From Quinella sp. 1Q7 (GTDB lineage Bacteria > Bacillota > Negativicutes > Selenomonadales > Selenomonadaceae): a stretch of DNA of 36,419 bases. Shown piece after piece: positions 16,273 to 18,882 of this stretch. The translations under genes and the position numbers were made by a program. The notes under the pieces are model-generated. The model was not told the DNA's origin, ran no database searches, and worked only from the letters and a program-made list of their open reading frames with translations. Positions within the stretch are counted from its first letter, which is position 1; each line of letters begins with the position of its first letter. The stretch is taken from the NCBI GenBank assembly GCA_015206805.1, contig JADEZP010000015.1:1-36419 (forward strand), read 5' to 3'.

Positions 16273-16301
16273 TTGACGGTGAAAAAATTTTTTGCTAGAC
16301 T
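16273..16301 (+). promoter_or_regulatory. Cassette 1 promoter
   Basis: TTGACG-17 nt-TAGACT. Confidence 0.75.
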
Positions 16302-16360
16302 GCGTAACGAAATCGAAACTCCAACGTATAAGTTACAAAACATTTTGGAGGCTGATAACA

Positions 16361-16744
16361 ATGGCAACACGTGAGGACAACTTGAAAAAAATCAATGCCG
16401 AACTCGAAGCTATGAGCGACGACGAACTTTCGATGGTCGCCGGCGGCACAAAGGATCAAACAGGAGGTGACAGTAGATTACTTTATGAACGTGGACTTGT
16501 TAATAAATGGTACTACACTACTGAAATTGGTAGTGATTGGATAGAGAAAAGCGCGGAAATCGATGCAGGCTGGGCGAAAGCCGGAATTACTTGCGTAACA
16601 AAACCTGGTGCCGATAATCTATATTTTCTCAATGGCAAGCAAATTTCACGCGACGAAGCTTGGAATCATGTGAAAGCGAATTTTAAAAAGATTAACACTA
16701 TCGTTGAAGAAATTGATATGTTTCCAATTCCTGATGAATTTTAA
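16361..16744 (+). CDS. Double-glycine-leader secreted peptide/protein, cassette 1
   Basis: 127 aa; leader [37 protein letters not shown] 9 nt before ATG; hydrophobic residues at -4 V, -7 L, -12 M, -15 L relative to GG. Confidence 0.85.
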
Positions 16745-16770
16745 TTAAAAAAGCGTCTCGACAGCAAATA

Positions 16771-16802
16771 AAAATCCTTCGGCGGTATGTCGGAGGGTTT
16801 TT
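16771..16802 (+). terminator. Cassette 1 terminator
   Basis: CCTTCGG...TCGGAGG then TTTTT. Confidence 0.8.
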
Positions 16803-16805
16803 CGT

Positions 16806-16834
16806 TTGACGTTGAAAAATTTTTCTGCTAAACT
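16806..16834 (+). promoter_or_regulatory. Cassette 2 promoter
   Basis: TTGACG-17 nt-TAAACT, immediately after terminator 1. Confidence 0.8.
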
Positions 16835-16893
16835 GCGTAACGAAATCGAAACTCCAACGTATAAGTTACAAAACATTTTGGAGGCTGATAATT

Positions 16894-17277
16894 ATGGCAA
16901 CACGTGACGAAAATCTCAAAAAAATCAATGACGCACTCGAAGCAATGAGCGACGACGAACTTTCGATGGTCGCCGGCGGAACGAAGAGCCAAACAGGAGA
17001 TGACAGTAGATTACTTTATGAACGTGGACTTGTTAATAAATGGTACTACACTACTGATATTGGTAGTGATTGGATAGAGAAAAGCGCGGAAATCGATGCA
17101 GGCTGGGCGAAAGCCGGAATTACTTGCGTAACTAAACCTGGTGCCGATAATCTATATTTTCTCAATGGCAAGCAAATTTCACGCGACGAAGCTTGGAATC
17201 ATGTGAAAGCGAATTTTAAAAAGATTAAAACTATCGTTGAAGAAATTGATATGTTTCCAATTCCTTATGAATTTTAA
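16894..17277 (+). CDS. Double-glycine-leader secreted peptide/protein, cassette 2
   Basis: 127 aa, about 9 substitutions from cassette 1; leader ...[15 protein letters not shown]. Confidence 0.85.
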   Translation: MATRDENLKKINDALEAMSDDELSMVAGGTKSQTGDDSRLLYERGLVNKWYYTTDIGSDWIEKSAEIDAGWAKAGITCVTKPGADNLYFLNGKQISRDEAWNHVKANFKKIKTIVEEIDMFPIPYEF

Positions 17278-17306
17278 TTAAAAAAGCGTCTCGGAAGTAA
17301 AAAAAT

Positions 17307-17334
17307 CCCTTCGGCACACGGTCGGAGGGTTTTT
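17307..17334 (+). terminator. Cassette 2 terminator
   Basis: CCCTTCGGCACACGGTCGGAGGG then TTTTT. Confidence 0.8.
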
Positions 17335-17337
17335 CGT

Positions 17338-17366
17338 TTGACGCTGAAAAATTTTTCTGCCGGACT
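17338..17366 (+). promoter_or_regulatory. Cassette 3 promoter (degenerate -10)
   Basis: TTGACG-17 nt-CGGACT; -10 differs from the TAAACT/TAGACT of the other cassettes. Confidence 0.6.
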
Positions 17367-17425
17367 GCGTAACGAAATCGAAACTCCAACGTATAAGTTA
17401 CAAAACATTTTGGAGGCTGGTAACC

Positions 17426-17791
17426 ATGGCAACACGTGAGGAAAAGCTCAAAAAAATCAATGCCGAACTCGAAACTATGAGCGACGACGAACTTTCTATG
17501 GTCGCAGGCGGCACAAAGTCCGAAACTGCAAATGACAGTCGCTTTCTTAACAGTTTGAACGGCTCATGCGACCGCTACGGAGAATATAAAGTTGGTGAGC
17601 CTTTTGGTGGGGATTCTAGATGCGCAGAAATTAGAGAGGCGTGGCGTACAGTCGGTATAGAGACACGCTTTAGTGACAATAATATGAACCGTTATCTTCT
17701 TAATGGAAGATATATCTCACAGGAAGAGGCTCGCCAGCACGCAATGAAAGTCACAGGTCACTACATGACGGAAAAAGATTGGAACTGGTAA
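17426..17791 (+). CDS. Double-glycine-leader secreted peptide/protein, cassette 3
   Basis: 121 aa; leader [30 protein letters not shown]; core DSRFLNSLNGSCDRYG...EARQHAMKVTGHYMTEKDWNW. Confidence 0.85.
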   Translation: MATREEKLKKINAELETMSDDELSMVAGGTKSETANDSRFLNSLNGSCDRYGEYKVGEPFGGDSRCAEIREAWRTVGIETRFSDNNMNRYLLNGRYISQEEARQHAMKVTGHYMTEKDWNW

Positions 17792-17810
17792 ACCGAATCA
17801 CGTAATCACA

Positions 17811-17840
17811 AGCCCTTCGGCACACGTCGAGGGGCTTTTT
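17811..17840 (+). terminator. Cassette 3 terminator
   Basis: AGCCCTTCG-GCACACGT-CGAGGGGCT then TTTTT. Confidence 0.8.
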
Positions 17841-17842
17841 GA

Positions 17843-17871
17843 TTGACGAAGGAAAATTTTCTTGCTAAACT
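17843..17871 (+). promoter_or_regulatory. Cassette 4 promoter
   Basis: TTGACG-17 nt-TAAACT. Confidence 0.8.
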
Positions 17872-17930
17872 TCGTAACGAAATCGAAACTCCAACGTATA
17901 AGCTACAAAACATTTTGGAGGCTGATAACC

Positions 17931-18299
17931 ATGGCAACACGTGAGGAAAAGCTCAAAAAAATCAACGACGAACTCGAAGCAATGAGCGACGAAGAACTTT
18001 CAATGGTCGCCGGCGGCACAAAGTCCGAAACTGAAAATGACAGTCGCTTTCTGAACAGCTTGAACGGCTCTTGCGACCGCTACGGAGCATTTAGGGTTTG
18101 CAATGAAGATAGTTGTGTTCCGGAGATTGAAAACGCGTGGGCAACAGTCGGGATAAAAGCAAAATTGAAGGTCAAGCCCGGTATCGGCTCTGAAAACGAA
18201 TATTATCTTGACGGCAAAGAAATTACGCAGGAAGAGGCTCGCCAGCACGCAATGAACGTTACCGGTCACCACATGACGGAAAAAGATTGGAACTGGTAA
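17931..18299 (+). CDS. Double-glycine-leader secreted peptide/protein, cassette 4
   Basis: 122 aa from ATG 17931; [30 protein letters not shown]; core ends GHHMTEKDWNW. Confidence 0.85.
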   Translation: MATREEKLKKINDELEAMSDEELSMVAGGTKSETENDSRFLNSLNGSCDRYGAFRVCNEDSCVPEIENAWATVGIKAKLKVKPGIGSENEYYLDGKEITQEEARQHAMNVTGHHMTEKDWNW

Positions 18300-18330
18300 G
18301 CTAAAAATCGTCTCGACAGCAAATAAAAAT

Positions 18331-18357
18331 CCTTCGGCGGTATGTCGGAGGGTTTTT
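18331..18357 (+). terminator. Cassette 4 terminator
   Basis: CCTTCGGCGGTATGTCGGAGGGTTTTT, same hairpin as cassette 1. Confidence 0.8.
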
Positions 18358-18360
18358 CGT

Positions 18361-18389
18361 TTGACGCTGAAAAATTTTTCTGCTAAACT
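18361..18389 (+). promoter_or_regulatory. Cassette 5 promoter
   Basis: TTGACG-17 nt-TAAACT. Confidence 0.8.
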
Positions 18390-18448
18390 GCGTAACGAAA
18401 TCGAAACTCCAACGTATAAGCTGTAAAACAAATTGGAGGCTGATAATT

Positions 18449-18826
18449 ATGGCAACACGTGAGGACAAGCTCAAAAAAATCAACGACGAACTCGAAGCTA
18501 TGAGCGACGACGAACTTTCGATGGTCGCCGGCGGCACAAAGGAAGAATGTGCAAATGACAGTCGTTTTCTGAACAGTTTGAACGGCTCGTGCGACCGCTA
18601 CGGAACATATAAAGTTAGTCCGTCTACTCCCGGTAGTGATGCAAGACGCGAAGAAATTAAAAATGCGTGGGCGACAGTCGGTATAGATGCATACTTATAT
18701 ACCGATGCGTATGGCTATTTTAACGCATATTATCTTAACGGTCGGTCAATCACGCAACAGCAAGCCCGCGAACATGCAATGAACGTCACCGGACACCACA
18801 TGACCGAATCCGACTGGAACTGGTAA
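18449..18826 (+). CDS. Double-glycine-leader secreted peptide/protein, cassette 5
   Basis: 125 aa; [30 protein letters not shown]; core ends GHHMTESDWNW. Confidence 0.85.
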   Translation: MATREDKLKKINDELEAMSDDELSMVAGGTKEECANDSRFLNSLNGSCDRYGTYKVSPSTPGSDARREEIKNAWATVGIDAYLYTDAYGYFNAYYLNGRSITQQQAREHAMNVTGHHMTESDWNW

Positions 18827-18850
18827 GTTAAAATCGTCTCGACAGCAAAA

Positions 18851-18882
18851 AAACCCTTCGGCGGTATGTCGGAGGGTTTTTT
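18851..18882. terminator. Cassette 5 terminator, probably bidirectional with purA
   Basis: AAACCCTTCGGCGGTATGTCGGAGGGTTTTTT; A and T tracts on both sides, between convergent cassette 5 and purA. Confidence 0.8.

Follow-up and report, generated by a model that had tools for sequence, protein, structure and literature searches.

Five tandem cassettes in the genome of Quinella sp. 1Q7 probably belong to a Selenomonadaceae-specific family of exported small folded proteins, which would be controlled by an ECF sigma factor and form a shuffling repertoire that most probably serves competition. The cassettes lie in a window of 36,419 nucleotides (the whole stretch of DNA that was analysed), and each would comprise an ECF-sigma promoter and ribosome site, a double-glycine leader of 29 residues, a folded core some 90-98 residues long and a terminator. 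An earlier, sequence-only reading had placed all five units correctly on the + strand, with ATGs at 16361, 16894, 17426, 17931 and 18449 (spacing of 533, 532, 505 and 518 bp). The ORFs are 127, 127, 121, 122 and 125 aa long and encode cores of 98, 98, 92, 93 and 96 aa behind a leader whose residues 1-29 are, as had been described, near-invariant in all five units and end in VAGG. The features of the array are:

16273..16301, + strand: unit 1 sigma-70-like boxes TTGACG-N17-TAGACT (9/12 consensus matches; secondary, less widely conserved)
16304..16331, + strand: unit 1 ECF-type promoter GTAAC-N16-CGTATAA (motif search: 27 sites in the genome, none in control)
16361..16447, + strand: unit 1 double-glycine leader, residues 1-29 (from the sequence)
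16448..16744, + strand: unit 1 core, type 2, 98 aa plus stop (sequence; AF2 model A4)
16776..16797, + strand: unit 1 terminator-like hairpin (seen in the sequence, below scan threshold)
16837..16864, + strand: unit 2 ECF-type promoter (motif search)
16894..16980, + strand: unit 2 leader (sequence)
16981..17277, + strand: unit 2 core, type 2 (DNA 97% identical to unit 1)
17307..17329, + strand: unit 2 terminator hairpin (terminator scan)
17369..17396, + strand: unit 3 ECF-type promoter (motif search; sigma-70-like -10 degenerate, CGGACT)
17426..17512, + strand: unit 3 leader (sequence)
17513..17791, + strand: unit 3 core, type 1 (sequence)
17810..17837, + strand: unit 3 terminator hairpin (terminator scan)
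17874..17901, + strand: unit 4 ECF-type promoter (motif search)
17931..18017, + strand: unit 4 leader (sequence)
18018..18299, + strand: unit 4 core, type 1 (sequence; AF2 model A3)
18331..18352, + strand: unit 4 terminator-like hairpin (3' region shares 93% identity with that of unit 1)
18392..18419, + strand: unit 5 ECF-type promoter (motif search)
18449..18535, + strand: unit 5 leader (sequence)
18536..18826, + strand: unit 5 core, type 1 (sequence)
18848..18882, + strand: unit 5 terminator hairpin (terminator scan)

The region 5' of each start codon had been read as a TTGACG-N17-TAAACT-like promoter followed by a 53-nt 5'UTR. Such boxes are present in four units, unit 3 having CGGACT where the -10 box is expected, and the supposed UTR holds a second, more strongly conserved element, GTAAC-N16-CGTATAA, in all five. 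An alignment of upstream regions from this genome and its relatives identifies the latter as the strictest upstream block, about 30 nt 5' of the start codon, and its layout of GTAAC, 16 nt and CGTATAA is typical of ECF sigma promoters. It occurs at 27 sites in the Quinella sp. 1Q7 genome, against none in a reversed control; 25 precede genes with a double-glycine leader, one (on contig C138) precedes a gene for a small peptide with a VAAAG ending, and the remaining one (C77) resembles a chance match. Across the 66 genomes of the genus there are 436 sites against 23 in the control, and family size and motif number rise together (Spearman 0.82). The spacer is exactly 16 nt at all 22 own sites and at 73 of the 74 sites in relatives that have the element. 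Of 111 genes from relatives, 83 have the element within 110 nt in any of three forms and 5 more have a near form; among the other 23, many come second after an ORF, and in several others a conserved UTR insert separates the gene from an element lying further 5'. The sigma-70-like box is found at 18 of 22 own sites but only 31 of 74 sites in relatives, and a simple sigma-70 promoter was rejected as the main control because this box is less constant and the ECF element is stricter. Since most units nonetheless have a sigma-70-like promoter, transcription may not hinge on the ECF sigma alone. The proposed autonomy of the units therefore needs to be amended, in that they are not merely autonomous and appear to form one genome-wide co-regulated set with an ECF-type main promoter.

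Terminators had also been assigned to all units. Hairpins were found by scan in three of the five and a weaker version of the same hairpin is visible in units 1 and 4 (that of unit 1 scoring below the scanner threshold), although the scan count did not exceed that in shuffled sequences. No riboswitch was found in the 5' region (no Rfam match at E<1), and a suspected CTCCAA/TTGGAG pairing was abandoned, as relatives do not have it in common and a promoter accounts better for the conserved part. In several species, single cassettes have a conserved stretch of about 60 nt, ACAGAGCCGCAAGGGACAAGCTGAATNGACAGCA, inserted 3' of the ECF promoter and 5' of the ribosome site (L046:7926, L052:7932, L058:6838, L060:7297, L072:7928, L074:7215 and L079:7927); the one copy examined had no Rfam match.

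The double-glycine nature of the leader was borne out by VAGG in 5/5 units, hydrophobic upstream positions and conserved L and M positions, and a C39 exporter, sought genome-wide, was found twice as TIGR03796 proteins above cut-off, one of them adjoining family members. Both lie in complete NHLM-type export clusters with a C39 peptidase/ABC, a second ABC, HlyD and MFP, one having TolC in addition. The order on contig C145 is family member with a damaged leader, family member, MFP, HlyD, C39-ABC, second ABC and TolC, and on contig C18 it is MFP, HlyD, C39-ABC, second ABC and ECF sigma. Scores for TIGR03796/03797/03794 are 1010.5/749.8/216.3 bits on C18 and 974.5/739.3/220.1 bits on C145, all above the curated cut-offs (853.3/709.4/156.2 bits). 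One or both of these exporters would recognise the precursor by its leader and cut it after GG, and the core would then cross both membranes via the C39 peptidase/ABC, second ABC, HlyD, MFP and TolC. We infer that the cores are released by cleavage after GG and exported, and their export as a regulon appears well supported by the sequence data. It could be argued, given that export of the cores is deduced from sequence, that they are duplicated cytoplasmic proteins in which GG is coincidental, but this is extremely improbable, as the VAGG leader end stands on many unrelated cores, the leader DNA is common to both core types and family members lie beside an exporter. On C145, a family member at L141:15777-16028 has an internal deletion in which the GG site is lost and the leader is joined to the core, and tandem short repeats encoding HPHWAALG-type proteins (L141:16153-16942) lie upstream of the exporter-linked cargo.

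A further alternative is that the cores are precursors of the NHLP or Nif11 type, chemically modified and then exported by exporters of the NHLM kind. The NHLM trio was defined with such precursors (PMC2887384), and genes with Nif11-like leaders are present just downstream of exporter and sigma in genome G087 (contig C94). The leader, however, scores 15.6 against a cut-off of 32.3 with the Nif11 model TIGR03798 and has no match to the NHLP model TIGR03793, there is no modification enzyme in the two export clusters, and the cores are long, predicted to fold and lack conserved Cys, all of which leaves modified precursors very unlikely. The row in G087 (L147:6016-8070), directly downstream of the NHLM exporter and ECF sigma, encodes very short cores.

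If the cassettes are indeed exported cargo, the ECF sigma of the C18 export operon, or a paralogue of it on contig C118, would transcribe all of them together. The sigma gene passes the ECF domain model TIGR02937 (116.1 against a cut-off of 42.9), and on C18 it stands at the end of the export operon, starting about 9 nt past ABC2. The order ABC1-ABC2-sigma is also found in G068, G084, G085, G086, G087 and G094 and, read from coordinates only, in G058, G080 and G081, while a C118-type sigma faces the exporter operon in G051, G053, G056, G070 and G102. Three genomes (G075, G079 and G097) have the family and a divergent sigma with the canonical motif absent, and contain GTCAT-N16-CATATA 18, 22 and 17 times, respectively (control 0); in G097 this variant promoter abuts the sigma gene. 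Similarly, TTAAY-N16-CGTATAA precedes both cargo and a sigma-linked peptide gene in G083. Sigma and promoter thus presumably belong together, this co-variation being the best evidence short of experiment, and the genomes would offer a natural set of matched sigma-promoter variants. Five genomes with at least three motifs gave no sigma match (G066, G069, G099, G101 and G110), and four with at least seven family members have at most two motifs of the canonical or GTCAT kind (G057, G058, G083 and G098); draft assemblies and a third promoter variant may explain some of these mismatches. No classical anti-sigma gene was recognised beside the sigma.

The cassettes would be copied, moved and recombined as modules. 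DNA identity between units is 85-93% in promoter and UTR and 90-95% in the leader, while that of the cores is 97% between units 1 and 2, 67-70% among units 3-5 and 38-44% between these two groups, and the 3' regions of units 1 and 4 are 93% identical despite different cores. The units are therefore mosaics of modules, and the diversified core of the sequence-only reading, although truly diverged, comes in two types rather than five independent ones. Between the two types, synonymous divergence reaches about 3 in the core against about 0.5 in the leader, from which it follows that leader and promoter were shared via recombination or conversion once the cores had split; codon constraint close to the start could add to the low value in the leader. 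Modular copying would keep promoter and leader alike, and divergence would fall on the cores, mainly in two hypervariable segments. The insertion between lysS and purA, and the reshuffling of cassettes, had both been anticipated and agree with these mosaic identities and with an empty site in ten relatives, purA and lysS being direct neighbours in G053, G056, G070, G078, G085, G087, G099, G102, G108 and G113. The gap is variably filled, by one cassette in G052, two in G112 and five in Quinella sp. 1Q7, and neither G052 nor G112 has cores related to those of the window. By this comparison, the purA-lysS site is one where cassettes are gained and exchanged. A YefM/YoeB-type toxin-antitoxin-like gene pair lies between two cargo cassettes on contig C44 (L038:3438-4045).

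Both core types gave confident AlphaFold2 models, with core blocks mostly at pLDDT 75-93 and lower loops. In the unit 1 model (A4) pLDDT is mostly 75-91 to about residue 110 with a low C-terminal tail, and in the unit 4 model (A3) most blocks reach 87-93, falling to 70 and 76 at variable loops. The predicted fold is alpha/beta, with helices, a short strand and hairpin, then a helix. The core had earlier gone unrecognised, and it matched no known family or fold, cytoplasmic families included: nothing significant was found in Pfam, NCBIfam, PHROGs or a PDB sequence search, nor by Foldseek against PDB and BFVD. Variation in type 1 cores peaks at residues 55-66 and 79-90 (pN about 0.5). Positive selection on the cores was considered and dismissed, as pN is below pS everywhere and there are only these two hypervariable segments; a site-wise pN/pS below 1 gives no direct sign of it.

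The cores would most likely interact with other microbes, with competition the most likely form of this by our inference, and protection would not be encoded beside each cassette. They may be bacteriocin-like killers sensu stricto, though the balance is against it. Were they classical class II bacteriocins or microcins, they would kill related bacteria and producers would hold matching immunity, a reading favoured by the GG leader, the C39 exporter, the array layout, weak leader matches to Bacteriocin_IIc, lantibiotic and CTB models, and variable arrays that resemble the bacteriocin region of pneumococci. In that region (blp), variable arrays of GG-leader cargo likewise have a common leader and regulatory promoter, but it differs in its two-component control, interspersed immunity genes and short peptides. 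The bacteriocin identity proposed earlier could not be upheld, however, as every model score is far below cut-off (PF10439 at most 14.1 against 27.1; NF038167, for CTB, 17.4 against 32) and no immunity gene was found beside each structural gene. Gaps between neighbouring cassettes across the family have a median of 150 nt and are 250 nt or less in 90 of 99 pairs, and such gaps are filled by terminator and promoter; the lack of room for immunity genes argues against classical bacteriocin/immunity pairs. The cores also exceed typical bacteriocins in size and are predicted to adopt an alpha/beta fold, and the classical reading is rather doubtful.

The repetition is far beyond chance, as a profile of the five units finds 28 places in the genome (best E=3.5e-65), with tandem rows on three contigs, C147 (the window), C165 and C109; C66, C44 and C145 have smaller groups, and C130, C135 and C163 distant relatives. 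At least 23 family members at about nine loci are present in this genome, which is a draft MAG of 169 contigs with 5.7% contamination. Among the comparison genomes, also drafts, the family occurs in 48 of the 66 of the genus, and a class-wide search found it in 87 of 380 Negativicutes genomes, the matches listed all being Selenomonadaceae. All 42 named loci in public genomes are from Selenomonadaceae or Selenomonadales MAGs, many of them ruminant and including Quinella. If the reading of an exported family holds, Selenomonadaceae, a major rumen family that includes Quinella, would deploy a large, shuffling secreted repertoire from a single regulon under sigma control, with new core families that match no known fold, and promoter, leader and exporter would provide simple sequence handles for listing all cargo in any genome.

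Three further described systems show partial likeness. NHLM/NHLP systems (TIGR03794, TIGR03796, TIGR03797; Haft et al. 2010, PMC2887384) share the exporter trio, paralogous precursors with common leaders and the GG site, but the leader here is neither NHLP nor Nif11 by model score, the promoter is of the ECF type (the word sigma is absent from Haft et al. 2010), and the cores are long with a predicted fold, neither of the two clusters having modification enzymes. In microbisporicin biosynthesis, the ECF sigma of MibX/MibW drives genes for an exported ribosomal peptide from the motif GAACC-N15-GCTAC (PMC4973701). Control of exported ribosomal product genes by an ECF sigma would be common to both; that system, however, is one cluster with an anti-sigma partner and a precursor operon that is not a sigma target, whereas in the present genome the ECF motif precedes dozens of scattered cargo genes and a classical anti-sigma gene was not recognised next to the sigma. 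According to its abstract, a study of Treponema denticola describes tandem duplicated GG-leader proteins with a bacteriocin-type signal domain, encoded near a C39-type exporter and secreted, with no killing detected; the genes there are three, paired with lipoprotein genes, and an ECF promoter and dispersed cassettes are not described in that abstract (PMC11879956).

The sigma is accompanied by a strongly conserved gene, present in single copy, that encodes a peptide of about 62 residues and lies 3' of the C118-type sigma under an ECF promoter. The peptide consists of DFSKFSKIKDSLLxRLKLRRRAINEEMSLDELDxVAAAGN and a variable tail, its VAAAG end resembles an export leader, and it has no match in Pfam or NCBIfam. 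Its loci are:

C138:5703-5963 (L135:2204-2467): own peptide gene
L142-L146, L153-L155, L162-L185: further peptide-gene loci

Peptide and sigma co-occur in the genus (45 genomes with both, 15 with neither, 2 and 4 with one; Fisher p = 1.7e-9), and the two genes adjoin in most inspected loci. In other genera, a peptide homologue is the divergent neighbour of the exporter MFP gene, and in G009, G145, G146 and G166 the peptide gene adjoins an exporter gene but has no copy of this sigma close by, which weakens the case for a dedicated anti-sigma; a signal or exporter partner fits better. It is quite unlikely that the cassettes themselves are secreted signals for cell-to-cell communication. Pheromones are also secreted by C39 exporters, and the regulon has its own sigma with an adjoining single-copy, exported-looking peptide gene, but the cassettes are multi-copy, their folded, divergent cores of about 90 aa are unlike known peptide pheromones, and the sigma-linked peptide is the better signal candidate. 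One conceivable, if unlikely, arrangement is that ECF sigma, NHLM exporter and peptide form one circuit, in which the peptide is maybe a pheromone or an exported sigma inhibitor (as FlgM is in flagella), coupling cargo transcription to free exporter. It would provide a testable case of an exporter coupled to the transcription of its own cargo.
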